NCBI GenBank assembly: GCA_001782075.1
Contig: MFNO01000031.1
Coordinates: forward strand, 1-49,752
Length of the DNA stretch: 49,752 nt
Reading direction: 5' to 3'
Origin: Candidatus Levybacteria bacterium RIFCSPHIGHO2_01_FULL_38_26
GTDB lineage: Bacteria; Patescibacteriota; Microgenomatia; Levybacterales; UBA12049
The notes below the pieces were generated by a model that was not told the DNA's origin, searched no databases, and saw only the letters and a list, made by a program, of their open reading frames with translations. Both the position numbers and the translations under genes were made by a program. Positions 1,372 through 33,105 of the stretch are shown piece after piece; positions within the stretch are counted from its first letter, which is position 1, and every line of letters starts with the position of its first letter.

Positions 1372-2751
1372 ATGAGAGAGCAAGAGAAGCGACAATACAA
1401 TCAAATTGAAAGTAGTGGAAGAAGAGTTGAGCAAGAGTTTCCAAAAAATGGAGATGAGAGACTTAATGCTCTTCTAGGCTCTTTTAATATGCCTACGAAA
1501 GCAGTAGTTCAGCAACTATTGCCTTATAATGGCTATATTTCGCCTGACGCTTTAGTAAGAGATTTTCGAGAAGTATTCAAGGGAACAGAATTAGCAAGCT
1601 TTGATTCCAAGTCCATCATTAGTTACTGTTTTAATACATTATGCCCGATTGGTCTTGTAGCGCAAGAATATACTATAGAGTATTTTGGCAAGGATAAATT
1701 AGTAGGATTTGGACTTACAGAAGCAGGAGCAAAGTATGGAATACCAGCTGCATGTCTCGCGCTTTATTTTGAGAACGAGCGCAAACAGAGTCTTTATCCA
1801 ACTTTTGGAGCTATCCATAAAAAAAATTCTGAAGAGCAGCGTACGCCACATACAAGAGCAAAAATTCTTTGGCTTTTGAATGAATGCCCTAATTTAACAG
1901 AAAAAGAAGTAGCTAGGGAATTGGGGATTAACAACTCAACTGTTAAGAACAGCCTCGTTGCTTTAAAAAATGCAGGAGTAATTGACTATAAATCAATAAC
2001 ACCTAATACAGGTAAAACACAAGTTACTTATACAAAAGGAGAGTTGCCAGAGGCAGAAGTAAAAAAAGTTGGATCAAGAGTTTCATTAACACAGGACGTT
2101 GTGAGATTTTGTGAAGAATTAATAAATGATGGCAAAGATATTACACAAGATGCTGTATTTATAAAATTTCCTGAAGAGGTACGAGGAAAGTATAAAGCAC
2201 TCAGACGCGATATTAATATAACTCTTTCAGGTTTGGCGCATCAAGAATTTCTTCAAAGAGGACAGTTTATAGGTGGGAAGATACAATCTCATGCTCAAAT
2301 TACTGAGAAAGGTAAAGCTATTGTTAGTGGCTTTCTTACTCCTCTTATTGGTCTTTTGCAAGAAGATAATGCAACTCGGCATTGGTTAGAGAGAGAAATT
2401 GTGCCTGTAGTAACAAGAGACTTAAAAGCTTATGCACAGAATAGCGGTGAATTATATTATCCACATTCTCCATCTTTTTTAAGAAAGCAATTCCAAGAAA
2501 ATATTGGCAGATTAAGGGAGATTCTTTCTGTAAGTTCTAAACCATTAACTAATGTTGAGTTATCAGAAATAATAGGTATACATCAGAGTACAGTACGCGC
2601 CTATCTCAATAAAACACTAGCCTCAGAACTACAAATAGAGGAAAGAAAGGGCGTATGCTATTATAGCATGAAAACTAGAAGGCAAGATCTTCTCGACTCG
2701 TCTCTTTCGCCAAAGGCTTCAGGTGAATCGCTCGAAGAATATGAAATATGA
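1372..2751 (+). CDS. Multi-domain helix-turn-helix regulator-like protein
   Basis: A 459-residue soluble protein with repeated winged-helix-like units. Two are clear. Residues about 161-204 have an arginine-rich first helix, then LTEKEVARELGINNSTVKNS and an AGVI wing. Residues about 381-415 contain LSEIIGIHQSTVRAYLNKT. Residues 40-125 (ending in a GFGLTEAG-like wing) and about 240-315 look like two more degenerate units. I do not recognise a named family; the best call is a DNA-binding transcription regulator. Its stop overlaps the folC start as ATGA (2748-2751), so the two are probably co-transcribed and translationally coupled. That suggests, but does not prove, a regulatory link with the folate/thymidylate genes downstream. 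Confidence 0.6.
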   Translation: MREQEKRQYNQIESSGRRVEQEFPKNGDERLNALLGSFNMPTKAVVQQLLPYNGYISPDALVRDFREVFKGTELASFDSKSIISYCFNTLCPIGLVAQEYTIEYFGKDKLVGFGLTEAGAKYGIPAACLALYFENERKQSLYPTFGAIHKKNSEEQRTPHTRAKILWLLNECPNLTEKEVARELGINNSTVKNSLVALKNAGVIDYKSITPNTGKTQVTYTKGELPEAEVKKVGSRVSLTQDVVRFCEELINDGKDITQDAVFIKFPEEVRGKYKALRRDINITLSGLAHQEFLQRGQFIGGKIQSHAQITEKGKAIVSGFLTPLIGLLQEDNATRHWLEREIVPVVTRDLKAYAQNSGELYYPHSPSFLRKQFQENIGRLREILSVSSKPLTNVELSEIIGIHQSTVRAYLNKTLASELQIEERKGVCYYSMKTRRQDLLDSSLSPKASGESLEEYEI

Positions 2752-4250
2752 AAATTAGGAGCTACGAAGAGGCAATTCGATATTTAGAGGGTTTTATTGG
2801 CAAGGTTATATTTAAGGTAGATAAAGCAACTCTCAAGCATTATGATCCACTGGAGAGGATGAGAACACTTCTATCTCTTCTTGATAATCCTCAGAACAGG
2901 TTTCAATCGGTTCTTGTCGGCGGGACTTCAGGGAAGGGGTCAACTTCTTATCTTATTTCTCATATTCTAACAACTGCCGGCTATAAAACTGGCCTAACTC
3001 TTTCTCCACATCTTCAAAAAGTAAATGAAAGACTGCAGATAAACGGTGAACAAATTTCAGATACAAAATTTACTGATTTAGTTAATTTTATAACACAAAT
3101 AATTACGCAAATGAAAAAAATGTCTGTTGGTGCGCCGTCGTATTTTGAGATTTTGATAGCAATGGCATTTAAGTATTTCGCGGATCAAAAAGTTGACATC
3201 GCAGTTGTAGAAGTTGGGATGGGAGGAGAATTTGACGCGACAAATACTTTATATCCCCTAATTGCAGTTTTGACAAATGTTTCATTGGACCATACCAATG
3301 TCTTGGGAAGAACTGTAGAGAAAATAGCAAGGACGAAAGTTGGTATTGTGAAGGGTTCAGTCCATTCGCTTGGCGACTTGGTGGTTCCTCGGGGTCCTGC
3401 CGCTCGCTCGTCCCATCCGACGTCCTCGAAAAAAATGTCCTCGGGCTTGCGCCCTGCGATTTTTCTGCGGGCGCTCGATGGGACACCCTCCGCTCGCGTC
3501 ACCCCTCGGTTGGTTGTCGTTACCGGAGTAGAGCAGAAATCGGTAATAAAAATAATTCAGGAAAGGTGTAGAGAGCAAGGAGCTAAATTTTTTCTCTTGA
3601 ATAAGGACTTTGATTATAAAGTAAATAAGGAAAGCAGGATTTGGACGGAATTTGATTTTCAGTCTAAAGTAGTAAATTTAAAAAATCTTCATTTGTCATT
3701 ATTGGGACAATATCAAGTAGAGAACGCAAGTCTGGCTATTAAAGCAGCATTGGAGCTTAGAAAGTTTGGTTTTGAAGCTTCGGAAGAGAATGTCAGAAAA
3801 GCCCTAGAAAGTGCATTTTTCCCGGGGCGGTTTGAGTACATATTACATAATACCAAATACAAAATAGTCTTAGACGGGGCACATAATCCGATAAAAATGA
3901 AAAAGTTTTTAGAATCTCTTAAAAAACTTTTTCCCAAAAACAAAAAAATTTTTGTTATTGGTTTTAAATTTGATAAAGACGTAAAAAAAATGCTAGGGCA
4001 GATCTTAAAAGCGGCGGACAAATTAATTGTTACAGAATTTAGGGCAAAAACAGATATGAAACTTAACGCGGGGATGGACGTAAAAAGTATTAAGTATTAT
4101 GTATCTGGCGCTAATTACAGCGGGGGTGTTTACTGGGAAGAAAACTTAAAACGTGCCATGGGTGAGGCTTTTAAAATTGCAGAAAAAGATGATCTTATTG
4201 TAGTCACGGGTTCTTTGTATTTGGTGGGAGAAGTTAGAGATATGCTATAA
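2748..4250 (+). CDS. folC: Folylpolyglutamate/dihydrofolate synthase with an in-frame insertion
   Basis: An ATP-dependent Mur-ligase-fold enzyme that adds glutamate to folates and, in bifunctional forms, makes dihydrofolate. The P-loop GGTSGKGST is at residues 58-66, followed by the conserved SPHLQKVNERLQING region. A GMGGEFDATN motif and a C-terminal LDGAHNP motif are also present. At 500 residues it is about 60-70 longer than usual. The excess is mostly residues about 204-256, encoded by GC-rich palindromic DNA (about 3357-3512). It falls between the family segments KVGIVKG and VVTGVEQ, which normally lie close together. The start overlaps the preceding regulator gene. The frame stays open through the insert, so the enzyme may still be made. 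Confidence 0.92.
   Translation: MKIRSYEEAIRYLEGFIGKVIFKVDKATLKHYDPLERMRTLLSLLDNPQNRFQSVLVGGTSGKGSTSYLISHILTTAGYKTGLTLSPHLQKVNERLQINGEQISDTKFTDLVNFITQIITQMKKMSVGAPSYFEILIAMAFKYFADQKVDIAVVEVGMGGEFDATNTLYPLIAVLTNVSLDHTNVLGRTVEKIARTKVGIVKGSVHSLGDLVVPRGPAARSSHPTSSKKMSSGLRPAIFLRALDGTPSARVTPRLVVVTGVEQKSVIKIIQERCREQGAKFFLLNKDFDYKVNKESRIWTEFDFQSKVVNLKNLHLSLLGQYQVENASLAIKAALELRKFGFEASEENVRKALESAFFPGRFEYILHNTKYKIVLDGAHNPIKMKKFLESLKKLFPKNKKIFVIGFKFDKDVKKMLGQILKAADKLIVTEFRAKTDMKLNAGMDVKSIKYYVSGANYSGGVYWEENLKRAMGEAFKIAEKDDLIVVTGSLYLVGEVRDML
3357..3515. repeat. GC-rich palindromic element inserted in frame in folC
   Basis: About 155 bp of markedly GC-rich DNA lies in an AT-rich gene. GTCCCATC at 3410-3417 pairs with GATGGGAC at 3477-3484. 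A run of seven A (3429-3435) faces a run of five T (3460-3464) about the same centre (near 3447). GGGC/GCCC at the middle forms a small hairpin tip. Outer arms (CCTCGGGG near 3388, CCCCTCGG near 3502) are imperfectly complementary. The boundaries are estimated from where conserved FolC protein sequence stops and resumes. Confidence 0.65.
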
Positions 4251-5880: not shown

Positions 5881-6570
5881 ATGAAGTATCATATAGAACT
5901 TGATCTTGATTTTAGAAGAAATCCACACAAGGGGCTGTATATTGCAATCGAGGGAATTGATGGCAGCGGAAAAACAACGCAGGCTGAAAGACTGGCCAAA
6001 TATTTTACGGTAAAAAGAAAAAAAGTTGTAGCGACCAGGGAGCCGCGAAAGAATGCGGGAACAGTAGGTAGATTAATTGGGGACATACTGGTATCTAAAG
6101 TAAAGGTACCATTTGCAGCATTTCAACACATCATGTCTGCTGAGCGGTCAATTCACCACGAGGAGTTGATTATTCCGTCTTTGAAGAAAGGCAAAATCGT
6201 GATAACAGATAGATGTTTTTGGTCGGCAGTTCCTTATGGAATACTGGACAGGATGAAGGATGCAAAAGATGAAAAGTACAGTTTTAATTTTGGAGAAGTG
6301 ATATTGGTTGGACAAAGCATTTTATCTATGTATCATCAATTTACAGTTCCGGATTATACTTTTTATCTGGATGTGTCTATTGATACTGCTGTTGAGAGAA
6401 TAGGAAAAAAAACAGAGAGAAAAGAGTTGTATGAAAAAAAAGATAAGCTGGAAAAAATATCCCTGGGATACAAATGGCTTTCTAAAAGATTTCCAAAAGA
6501 AATTACGGTGATTGATGGAGAAAAGAGCGAGGAGGAAGTCACGGAGGAAATAGTTAAAAAATTGACCTAA
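5881..6570 (+). CDS. tmk: Thymidylate kinase
   Basis: Phosphorylates dTMP to dTDP. The 229-residue P-loop kinase has IAIEGIDGSGKTTQ near residues 20-33. The TREPRKNAGT region is the TMK DR-like arm. ITDRCFWSAVPYG is the second conserved nucleotide-binding motif. I chose ATG 5881 because the upstream in-frame TTG at 5854 adds a non-conserved peptide that overlaps the predicted promoter. The N-terminus still has about 15 extra residues (HIELDLDFRRNPHKG) before the first strand. The gene follows the divergent broken acyltransferase and precedes the dUTPase-like gene. Confidence 0.88.
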   Translation: MKYHIELDLDFRRNPHKGLYIAIEGIDGSGKTTQAERLAKYFTVKRKKVVATREPRKNAGTVGRLIGDILVSKVKVPFAAFQHIMSAERSIHHEELIIPSLKKGKIVITDRCFWSAVPYGILDRMKDAKDEKYSFNFGEVILVGQSILSMYHQFTVPDYTFYLDVSIDTAVERIGKKTERKELYEKKDKLEKISLGYKWLSKRFPKEITVIDGEKSEEEVTEEIVKKLT

Positions 6571-6575
6571 TTAAC

Positions 6576-6638
6576 CTAATTGATCTAATTTCTAAACTTT
6601 TGGGGTTTTGGAAATTGGGATTTGATTAGATCAATTAG
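6576..6638. repeat. 14-bp perfect inverted repeat between tmk and the dUTPase gene
   Basis: CTAATTGATCTAAT at 6576-6589 pairs exactly with ATTAGATCAATTAG at 6625-6638 around a 35-nt loop containing CTTTTGGGGTTTTGG. It is followed by TAATTAGAAATT-type repeats up to the next gene. It could be a transcript hairpin (terminator or processing site) or a mobile palindrome. No terminal T run follows it directly. Confidence 0.7.
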
Positions 6639-6665
6639 AAATTAGTAATTAGAAATTTGAAAAAT

Positions 6666-29532: not shown

Positions 29533-30569
29533 GAATTATTGTTACGCATGCATCTCCGGATTTGGATGCGATTACATCAGCTTGGCTTATCAGAAAATTT
29601 CTGCCGGGATGGGATAGCACGGAGGTGAGGTTTGTGCCTGCGGGAGAGAGATTGAGTAGAAACGCGCTGAGGTCGCCTCGTCAATTCGACGACTCTTCCA
29701 GCCCAAACTTAAAACAACCCTCAAACCTTGCACAAGCAGATCTTTCTAATACCGACTCTAGTGCCGTGTTATTCAAGAGTTCGTCTCATGCCGAGGCTCC
29801 CCGCGCAATAGATGTAGTTGAAATAATTAATGGACATGAAGTAATTCATGTGGATACCGGACTGGGGCCTTTGGATCATCATCAGACAGCCTCGGATGAA
29901 GTTTGCGGAGCTAGTTTGACATGGGAGTATATCAAAGCGCAAAGCGCAAAGCGCAAAGCGCAAAATTTACAGACAGAAAAACAGAGGGATAGGGAACAGG
30001 CGATTTCAAGGATGGTTAAAGCTGTCGTTGATATTGATCATTTCAAAGAGGTTTTTTGGGAAGACACGACAGCTGACTATCATGAATTTTCTCTACTTTC
30101 TATTTTGGATGGCTTGAAACTTGCAAAGATGGATCAGGATGAATATTACGTTGATTTTGTAAGCGAGTGTTTGGATGCGATTCTTCACGAATTCGAAAAC
30201 AGAATTTGGGCGGAGAAAGAGATAGCAGAAAAAGGGATAAAATTTGATACTCGGTTTGGGAAAGGCATGGGTTTTGAAACAATTAATGATACGGTTTTAA
30301 AACTTGCACAGAAAATGGGATATGTTGCGGTAATTAGAAAAGATCCTAGAAAAGGATATGTTAGGATAAAGGCTATGCCCTCTCAAAATAAAAAAGACGA
30401 TATAGATTTGACCTTAGCATACGAAAAGCTGAAGAAAATGGACCCGAGTGCTACGTGGTTTTTACATATCGGAAAAAAAATGCTTTTGAACGGTTCGGTC
30501 AAGAATCCGAAGATGCGGCCGACGAGGTTGAGTTTGCTTGATATAATAAAAGTACTGGAAAAGATATGA
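29529..30569 (+). CDS. MYG1/UPF0160-like DHH phosphoesterase with two repeat insertions
   Basis: A 346-residue metal-dependent hydrolase. THASPDLDAITSAWLI opens the protein, and GPLDHHQTASDEVCGASLTWEYI supplies the DHH motif at 116-118. The region around MVKAVVDIDHFKEVFW supplies further acidic ligands. The family includes MYG1-type exonucleases; the natural substrate here is unknown. Two non-conserved stretches interrupt it: residues about 46-93 come from a terminal-inverted-repeat element shared with dnaX, and residues about 136-146 from (AAAGCGC)n. It is coupled by ATGA overlaps to both neighbours, proS and the HIT gene. Confidence 0.8.
   Translation: MRIIVTHASPDLDAITSAWLIRKFLPGWDSTEVRFVPAGERLSRNALRSPRQFDDSSSPNLKQPSNLAQADLSNTDSSAVLFKSSSHAEAPRAIDVVEIINGHEVIHVDTGLGPLDHHQTASDEVCGASLTWEYIKAQSAKRKAQNLQTEKQRDREQAISRMVKAVVDIDHFKEVFWEDTTADYHEFSLLSILDGLKLAKMDQDEYYVDFVSECLDAILHEFENRIWAEKEIAEKGIKFDTRFGKGMGFETINDTVLKLAQKMGYVAVIRKDPRKGYVRIKAMPSQNKKDDIDLTLAYEKLKKMDPSATWFLHIGKKMLLNGSVKNPKMRPTRLSLLDIIKVLEKI
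29664..29806. repeat. Terminal-inverted-repeat element inside the MYG1-like gene
   Basis: A 143-bp element bounded by GCGC. The left end is GCGCTGAGGTCGCCTCGTCA and the right end, read on the other strand, is GCGCGGGGAGCCTCGGCATG; both continue to GACGA-ACTCTT. It is the same family as 32698-32849 in dnaX: the two left ends match at roughly 33 of 42 positions and both right ends finish GAGGCTCCCCGCGC. The interiors differ. Both are translated in the same frame (ending AEAPRA). Confidence 0.8.
29934..29964 (+). repeat. (AAAGCGC)n repeat in the MYG1-like gene
   Basis: About four tandem heptamers, read in frame as AQSAKRKAQ. Seven bases repeated three times is 21 bp, so unit changes in threes keep the frame. 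Confidence 0.85.
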
Positions 30570-31644: not shown

Positions 31645-33105
31645 ATGGTTTTCTACAGAAAGTATCGCCCTCAAAAAATTGAAGACCTCGACAGTGAAGA
31701 AGTAAGAGATTTACTTTCTTCTGTTTTGTCTTCCAAGGACATTGCACACGCATTTCTCTTTACAGGTCCAAAAGGCTTGGGGAAAACATCTGCGGCAAGA
31801 ATTGTGGCAAAGGCAGTTAACTGCGAAAAAAGAAAAGGTGTGGAGCCCTGCAACACTTGTGACCAATGCATCTCAATCACAAACGGCACTAATATTGATG
31901 TACTCGAGATTGATGGAGCGTCAAACAGAGGGATTGATGAAGTTAGGGATCTTAGAGAAAAGATAAGACTTGCGCCAGCTAGGGCTCGGAGGAAGGTTTA
32001 CATTATTGATGAGGTTCACATGTTGACCACAGAGGCATTTAATGCGCTTCTCAAGACCCTGGAGGAGCCGCCAGGTCATGTTATTTTTGTACTTTGCACT
32101 ACAGAGCCGCATAAAGTTCCGGCAACCATAGCATCTCGTTGTTTTCATATCACTTTTAAGAAAGCAACAGTAGAAGAATTGGTTCGTTCGTTTGAAAGAA
32201 TTGTAAAAAAAGAAAAATTGGAAATAAACAAGGAAGCTTTGGAATTTATCGCCAGTCTTTCGGACGGAAGCTTTAGAGATGGGTCAAAAATATTAGAAGA
32301 AATCACTTTGTTTTCAAAAGGAAAGAAAATTACTAGGGAATTTGTGGAAGAAAAATATAAAAGATCAAATATCAAAGATCAAGTATTAAAGATGATTGAA
32401 TTTTTGTCTGAGAAAAACGCGCCCGCAGGATTGAGGCTAGTAGCAGAAATAGCCGATCAAGGTATGGATTTTAAATACATTATTGAACAACTGATATCAG
32501 AATTGCATGAGATGCTTTTGGCACAAGTAGGAATTGGGGAAAGTGAACCCCGATCAAATCGGGGTCAAAAGTTAGAAATTGAAGAAATTAAGGAACTTGT
32601 AGAGTTGTTATCAAAGGCGCATGGGGAATTGAAATATGCTGTATTGTCTCAAATGCCGCTTGAATTGGTAATTGTGGAGTGGGGGTTGGCGAAGGGTGCG
32701 CTTGGGTCGTCTCGTCGACTCAACGACTCTCCAGAGCCCAGCGGAAACACACGATCAGTTGACGAAAAAGCTTCATTGCACGCTGCTCTGTCAAATGTCG
32801 GTTCAGAGAAAACAGTGAAGAGTACGTTTCGCGCAGAGGCTCCCCGCGCCGCTGTAGTGGATAATTTCTGGCAAGAGTTGATTAATAAAGTGAAGGCCTA
32901 TAACCATTCCATCGCTGGGGTATTGCGCGGATGCATCCTGAAAAGCTATGATAGTAAAAAGCTTGTGATTGAGGCAAAATACAAGTTTCATAAGGAAAAA
33001 TTGGAGGAAAAAAAGACAAGAGAAATTCTTAGGAAGGTCAGCGAGGAAATTGCGGGAAGTCCAATAGCTATTTCGGTAGTGTTAAAAATGGAAGGAGGTG
33101 TTTGA
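31645..33105 (+). CDS. dnaX: DNA polymerase III subunit gamma/tau with in-frame insertions
   Basis: The clamp-loader ATPase. The 486-residue protein has the Walker A GPKGLGKTS (41-49), a zinc module with Cys60, Cys69, Cys72 and Cys75, and a DEVHML Walker B. FNALLKTLEEPP and the SRC motif region (ASRCFH) follow. Domain III follows up to about residue 350. Two repeat-derived stretches are present: residues about 301-307 from a perfect ACCCCGAT palindrome, and residues 352-402 from a 152-bp element shared with the MYG1-like gene. The C-terminal approximately 80 residues are a compact tau-like end. No slippery A-run suggests a gamma frameshift. Confidence 0.94.
   Translation: MVFYRKYRPQKIEDLDSEEVRDLLSSVLSSKDIAHAFLFTGPKGLGKTSAARIVAKAVNCEKRKGVEPCNTCDQCISITNGTNIDVLEIDGASNRGIDEVRDLREKIRLAPARARRKVYIIDEVHMLTTEAFNALLKTLEEPPGHVIFVLCTTEPHKVPATIASRCFHITFKKATVEELVRSFERIVKKEKLEINKEALEFIASLSDGSFRDGSKILEEITLFSKGKKITREFVEEKYKRSNIKDQVLKMIEFLSEKNAPAGLRLVAEIADQGMDFKYIIEQLISELHEMLLAQVGIGESEPRSNRGQKLEIEEIKELVELLSKAHGELKYAVLSQMPLELVIVEWGLAKGALGSSRRLNDSPEPSGNTRSVDEKASLHAALSNVGSEKTVKSTFRAEAPRAAVVDNFWQELINKVKAYNHSIAGVLRGCILKSYDSKKLVIEAKYKFHKEKLEEKKTREILRKVSEEIAGSPIAISVVLKMEGGV
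32547..32565. repeat. 19-bp perfect palindrome in dnaX
   Basis: ACCCCGAT and ATCGGGGT are exactly complementary around CAA. A CAAAAGTTAGAAATT repeat-like tail follows. It is read in frame as EPRSNRGQK. Confidence 0.75.
32698..32849. repeat. Terminal-inverted-repeat element inside dnaX
   Basis: A 152-bp element bounded by GCGC at both ends. The left end is GCGCTTGGGTCGTCTCGTCG and the right end finishes AGAGGCTCCCCGCGC. It is the same family and frame as 29664-29806: the translations share AL.S.R at one side and AEAPRA at the other. It sits in the linker after domain III, where an added peptide is tolerable. Confidence 0.8.
33092..33100 (+). promoter_or_regulatory. Strong Shine-Dalgarno of ybaB
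   Basis: AAGGAGGTG lies at the end of dnaX, 9 nt before ATG 33110. It decides this start over the in-frame GTG at 33098, which overlaps the site itself. Confidence 0.75.

Follow-up and report, generated by a model that had tools for sequence, protein, structure and literature searches.

An in-frame palindromic insert in folC of a Levybacteria genome, very probably a copy of a dispersed element of Patescibacteria

The folC gene and its insert

The window, that is, the whole 49,752-nucleotide stretch analyzed, corresponds to contig C31 of the draft genome of Candidatus Levybacteria bacterium RIFCSPHIGHO2_01_FULL_38_26 (1.13 Mb, 38 contigs, estimated completeness 98.5%). A folC gene was identified in the window (Table 1) and was the sole FolC-level match genome-wide, the other match being a 27% identical ligase encoded on contig C21. 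A gene for a PaaX-like regulator with a Cas2-like domain (400-1104) was found just upstream of that for a winged-helix protein (1372-2751). Two intergenic repeat copies (316-353 and 1204-1241), 82% alike, were centred on the palindrome TTCCCACGTGGGA, and an AT-rich inverted repeat, CTAATTGATCTAATTTC...GATTAGATCAATTAG (6576-6645), was located downstream of an ORF ending at 6570.

A first-pass annotation of the window had described folC as split in frame by about 50 codons of unusually GC-rich DNA. The split was borne out by TIGR01499, which matched the gene product as two separate stretches, and by FolC of T. maritima (1o5z), which covered residues 1-204 and 253-500 while itself remaining ungapped. 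The size of the insert was also upheld, but not its limits, which had been set at 3357-3515: comparison with orthologues and the covariance model described below gave a slightly different insert, with the palindromic element occupying most of it (Table 1). The GC content of the element (66%) exceeded that of the window (39.0%), as had been claimed. The insert begins 6 residues past Lys197, which aligns with Lys185 of the L. casei enzyme when counted on the PDB alignment, and which we take to be the carbamylated active-site lysine. The peptide encoded by the element, RGPAARSSHPTSS...ALDGTPSARVTP, is rich in Ser, Pro, Ala, and Arg. An AlphaFold prediction of this FolC from a single sequence was uninformative on the loop (pLDDT 33). 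Derivation of the left extension from another palindrome family was considered and rejected, since 474, 253, and 703 of 2000 shuffles were equally good.

Table 1. Features of the folC gene and of the insert that it carries.
Feature	Position	Strand	Basis and remarks
folC	2748..4250	+	500 codons, no internal stop; TIGR01499 E 1.4e-104, 350.7 bits (cut-off 162.65)
Whole insert relative to uninterrupted FolC	3354..3509	+	about 48-50 added codons; orthologue and PDB alignments
Left extension	3354..3387	+	codons GSVHSLGDLVV; outside model R1, origin unassigned
Palindromic element, family R1, type A	3388..3508	+	covariance model R1, 91.1 bits, E 4.9e-20 in the window
Outer stem, left arm GGGGT	3391..3395	+	fold; 5 pairs, 100% of A1 cells paired
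Inner stem, left arm GTCCCATC	3410..3417	+	fold; helix 3, 7/17 pairs with changes on both sides
Inner stem, right arm GATGGGAC	3477..3484	+	fold; partner of GTCCCATC in helix 3
Outer stem, right arm ACCCC	3501..3505	+	fold; partner of GGGGT, 5 pairs

Fold and covariation of the element

The self-complementarity noted earlier was confirmed, as the two inner arms pair with each other. The outer arms pair as well, together with a further CC with GG, and constitute terminal inverted repeats that are imperfect farther out. Folding of 3350-3520, the range proposed in the first-pass annotation, did not bear out a structure: the + strand was no better than shuffles (z +0.61), and the - strand gave z -1.54. 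With the corrected boundaries, both strands folded somewhat better than shuffles (z -1.85 for the + strand and -3.84 for the - strand), and the 121-nt core at 3388-3508 folded at z -2.54. An inverted-repeat search of the window, at the program settings used, did not report the folC palindrome.

The decisive evidence for the reality of the fold is covariation among copies. Sequences matching the element were modeled as family R1, using 15 copies that included the folC copy of the window. The copies measure 76-148 nt and form nested palindromes. Two alignments were used, one of 15 type A copies (A1) and one of 5 type B copies (A2). On A1, RNAalifold predicted 28 pairs, 12 of which showed changes on both sides. 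Pairing was seen in 96.6% of A1 cells, compared with 86.4% in shuffled alignments and 37.5-48.6% for slid structures, a comparison biased against the slid versions by the derivation of the structure from A1 itself. Changes on both sides occurred in 44 cells, against a shuffled mean of 14.7, and none of 500 shuffles was as high; this control is free of that bias, but it ignores the relatedness of the copies. In the five type B sequences, compensatory changes were found in 6 of 31 pairs. Conserved mispaired TC/TC steps sit between the paired steps of the fold.

Taken as RNA, individual copies fold on both strands, with mean z values of -2.88 and -2.43. A strand polarity of the fold was considered and rejected: G-T cells outnumbered A-C cells (102 vs. 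31), but two positions accounted for 66 of the G-T cells, and for 54 of 66 copies it was the - strand that gave the lower folding energy. For these reasons, no acting strand is claimed.

Insertion sites in FolC and other proteins of relatives

Rather than being shared by all orthologues, the element was present in none of the 13 FolC orthologue loci scanned (L057 was among these loci and was omitted from the protein alignment). The length of the site varied among relatives. FolC of genome G023 was empty there, that of G011 (L045) carried a different palindromic insert (z -3.41), and that of G022 (L047) another palindromic one, AT-rich and about 75 nt long (z -2.57). A second in-frame insert, CHPEFISGSRYIG...KQVQHDKE, was seen in the C-terminal half of the G011 protein and resembles a REP dimer.

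Within the window, in-frame inserts in a DHH-family gene (29655-29807) and in dnaX (32695-32850) share their left part and the end GAGGCTCCCCGCGC. They folded no better than shuffles (z -1.03 and +0.38, respectively). Model R1 matched only the folC copy in the window, so that the dnaX insert belongs to something else, in agreement with the earlier proposal of two families. Relatives carry R1 itself at the DHH site (L026, L100) and at the dnaX site (L022, L027, L029, L031, L103, L104).

The varying length at the FolC site would suit an ordinary lineage-specific loop that is no mobile element, or a segment removed by protein splicing. These readings are the least probable of those weighed here, since dozens of unrelated genes, and intergenic regions too, contain the same element, FolC orthologues lack it, and the covariation is at the nucleotide level. 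At about 32-50 residues, the segment also falls short of the size of an intein.

Distribution of family R1

When the insert was used as a BLAST query, two more full copies and weaker pieces were found in its own genome; at E ≤ 1e-3, 14 of the 73 family genomes had matches. Of these 73 genomes, 34 gave a match to model R1 at E ≤ 1e-3, as did 35 of the 82 genomes of the order. At E ≤ 1e-5, with no more than 11 candidates scored per genome, the model matched at least 46 of 373 genomes of the class and at least 15 of 379 in the phylum. Where a match scored less than about 40 bits, it may be to a distant relative. Carriage by phages or plasmids was considered and rejected, as phages, plasmids, and viral contigs gave no match.

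An exact 22-base pattern of the element was found in 10 stretches of named records, labeled as Levybacteria/Levyibacteriota (6), Curtissbacteria (1), Patescibacteria group (1), "bacterium" (1), and Nitriliruptorales (1). One of these 10 stretches, from an actinobacterial MAG outside Patescibacteria (L115, JAURQY010000028.1), may be a chance occurrence in GC-rich DNA. A search of genome contigs with FolC as the query gave no match.

In addition, exact matches of 17-18 nt to the element were present in its own genome on contigs C4, C21, and C13. The match on C4 presumably translates to a conserved RpoB stretch and is probably due to chance. Those on C13 (L013, G000:C13:137946-137962) and C21 (L012, G000:C21:41077-41093) are 17-nt pieces of the left end of the element, lying in what we take to be a glycosyltransferase gene and a Mur-ligase-like gene, respectively. 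They may be remnants of elements; L013 coincides with a site at which L086, L094, and L111 carry full elements.

Copies within genes and their reading phase

Two sets of copies were analyzed. The first comprised 66 R1 copies from 62 loci, covering part of the 100 places found, and the second 48 copies (E ≤ 1e-6) from 40 loci outside the family, 39 of them in the same class and 1 in another. A copy was counted as in-gene when its ORF was 200 codons or longer and extended for 40 codons or more to each side of the element. By this definition, 72 of the 114 copies were within long ORFs (37 of 66 in the first set and 35 of 48 in the second) and 42 were outside. The latter class rests on ORF geometry, which was inspected by eye for all 29 such copies in the first set: long ORFs end before and open after the element, and no plainly broken long gene was seen.

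The host genes named from first-set copies encode leucyl-tRNA synthetase (LeuRS, leuS), DnaX, TopA, PolA exonuclease, FolC, YchF, RadA, IF-2 (infB), transketolase (tkt), CarB, RecJ, WecG, FolD, a P-type ATPase, TatD, and glycosyltransferases. Several hosts recurred, namely dnaX in 6 genomes, a topA group in 5, and infB and a glycosyltransferase gene in 3 each; these are counts of genomes, and each gene may represent one old insertion or several. R1 has many copies, which share a conserved nested fold and are located in unrelated genes as well as between genes.

Within genes, R1 leaves the frame open, and one phase is read. Among sense copies, 49 of 50 were in phase 1, with no stop in that phase; an in-gene copy is open by definition, and the independent evidence is the phase. 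In the nearly independent second set, all 20 sense copies were in phase 1. Grouping of host genes by similarity yielded 42 groups, and phase 1 was read in 27 of the 28 groups with sense copies; the bias over host groups had a log10 P of -8.4, conditional on the phases left open by stops. All three phases were open in 26 of the 50 sense copies, which means that stops do not force the phase. The 22 antisense in-gene copies were distributed as 15, 6, and 1 over phases 1, 0, and 2, and 15 of them had one open phase only. The sole sense copy off phase 1 (L113) lies at the trpC-trpF junction, where R1 yields one continuous frame.

Mean hydropathy was 0.11, -0.35, and -0.30 for phases 0, 1, and 2, respectively. 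Compared with phase 1, phase 0 is more hydrophobic, but phase 2 is not clearly so, and hydropathy alone is therefore no explanation of the phase rule. Nor is any selection for stop-free DNA beyond composition claimed: the deficit of + strand stops among the 66 first-set copies was mild (32 seen vs. 42.0 expected in genes, and 19 vs. 26.8 outside).

The earlier suggestion that the insert might be spliced at the RNA or protein level was not supported; at the RNA level, it conflicts with this sharing of one phase among sense copies and host groups. If the palindrome were a tiny intron or otherwise cut from the mRNA, leaving a protein without the insert, its conserved structure and its folding on either strand would fit. 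However, removal from RNA would free the phase, yet one stop-free phase dominates even though many copies are open in all three; moreover, the antisense in-gene copies are transcribed as the opposite strand. Rfam gave no match in the window at gathering scores, and none at 3330-3540 up to E 1. We consider RNA removal very improbable. Translational bypassing, in which ribosomes would hop across the hairpin, has its known setting in hairpins within conserved genes. Palindromic elements in the mitochondria of Magnusiomyces capitatus are reported to be bypassed in this way (PMC6649704). For R1, bypassing is still less probable, because it would likewise free the phase and also allow internal stops, but both are constrained in R1.

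Mobility, ends, and possible carrier

Copies 95-98% identical to each other occupy different genes, with flank identities of about 0.5-0.65, the level of unrelated pairs (L038 is omitted from the flank counts). For example, the leuS copy of G031 and the dnaX copy of G022, which belong to two genera, were 97.9% identical with flanks at background, and R1 copies in two genes of G216 were 97.8% identical. Three copies at L160 lie in paralogous genes and were excluded as evidence of mobility. In L031 (dnaX) and L039 (infB), R1 appeared by eye to be nested within the remains or ends of another element.

In a search for target-site duplications, direct repeats between the flanks were hardly longer than in shuffled sequences, with longest matches averaging 3.65 against 3.46, and 19 of 300 shuffles were as high; the element ends used are provisional, since complementarity runs 3-5 positions past the GGGG/CCCC arms.

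A carrier of the REP-associated tyrosine (Y1) transposase kind, moving R1 as a REP-type element, would be compatible with a mobile palindromic element and would name its carrier. Y1 enzymes read imperfect hairpins with conserved mismatches, and Y1_Tnp domains were found in 41 of 73 genomes of the family. Their presence was not associated with strong R1 copies (13 of 20 strong-copy genomes vs. 28 of 53 others, Fisher p 0.43; a second Fisher test gave p 0.24), and seven strong-copy genomes, two of them at least 90% complete, had none. In addition, R1 elements are no single hairpins of 20-40 bp. A Y1 transposase was rejected as the carrier on the presence-absence data, and we regard this origin as unlikely.

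Origin and retention of the insert

The insert in folC is very probably one copy of a palindromic element that is dispersed among Patescibacteria, non-autonomous, and probably mobile, that resembles the Rickettsia palindromic elements (RPE), and that is retained in the protein as a tolerated loop. Of the two alternatives first put forward, toleration or splicing, it is toleration that agrees with the recurrence of copies across genomes and with a single open frame in the genome's only FolC-level gene. Judged from the phase, the insert is apparently retained in mature FolC.

The element would have been copied to many places by some carrier. Selection would have removed insertions that broke genes or lay out of frame; where a copy landed in a permissive loop and in the tolerated phase, it would have persisted and been translated. 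In folC, both mRNA and protein would keep the insert, which may form an exposed loop that follows the GIVK segment next to the catalytic lysine. The conserved TC/TC steps might point to a protein that recognizes the folded strand.

A bolder reading is conceivable, although on balance we doubt it. R1 might be an active, phylum-wide palindrome family of the CPR that has been selected twice, for a fold that serves its spread and for one "house" phase that makes it harmless in proteins. Such a family would be adapted to the essential genes of gene-dense minimal genomes, tagging enzymes of replication, translation, and folate metabolism with a common peptide and sharing permissive loops with other palindrome families.

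Comparison with known elements

R1 adds a new family to an established kind of element, the protein-coding palindromic elements. Most descriptions of coding palindromes concern Rickettsia and Wolbachia, and no report of such an element in CPR was found in the literature searched. With its copies, empty sites, and phase rule in reduced genomes of uncultured CPR, R1 offers a far larger sample on which to test how selfish DNA lives in essential genes. In practical terms, such inserts distort alignments, phylogenies, and structure predictions of proteins encoded by CPR core genes.

Like CGTC- and GTAG-tagged REPs, R1 consists of palindromic repeats that also occur inside genes. These REPs are described as single hairpins of 20-40 bp with a fixed tag, found within genes as well, and REP dimers encode 20-30 residues; the CGTC kind is given there as having no known transposase (PMC3733652). 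R1 differs from the CGTC kind in its larger, nested palindromes and at the right-arm position of a possible CGTC tag, where CGTC and CGCC are about equally frequent. Open-frame MITEs of bacteria, including ERIC/RU-1, YPAL/RU-2, and the 107-bp Correia/NEMIS, are likewise small, non-autonomous, structured, and capable of in-frame fusion. They are described as carrying target-site duplications (PMC2229807), whereas direct repeats flanking R1 are barely above shuffles. The coding palindromes of nematomorph mitochondria are inverted repeats within functional coding sequence (PMC6649704), and R1 resembles them in being retained there. They are described as perfect repeats scattered in mitochondrial genes and, unlike R1, are not presented as a dispersed family with a common sequence.

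The closest likeness in kind is to RPE, which are described as palindromic repeats of 100-150 bp in Rickettsia, with many copies and several families per genome, located in frame inside conserved genes and also in intergenic regions (Ogata, 2000, 2002; PMC10969869, PMC2229807, PMC3733652). The host enzyme encoded by gmk has been reported active with an RPE insert (PMC2229807). R1 shares with RPE, as described, the palindromic structure, the multiple copies, the presence of several families in one genome, and the location both in frame within conserved genes and between genes. The R1 copies studied sit in Patescibacteria, not Rickettsia; R1 belongs to another phylum and is GC-rich in a genome of 39% GC. 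By those same descriptions, RPE are spread over one genus, whereas R1 extends over a class and beyond, and for R1 the phase preference has been quantified.
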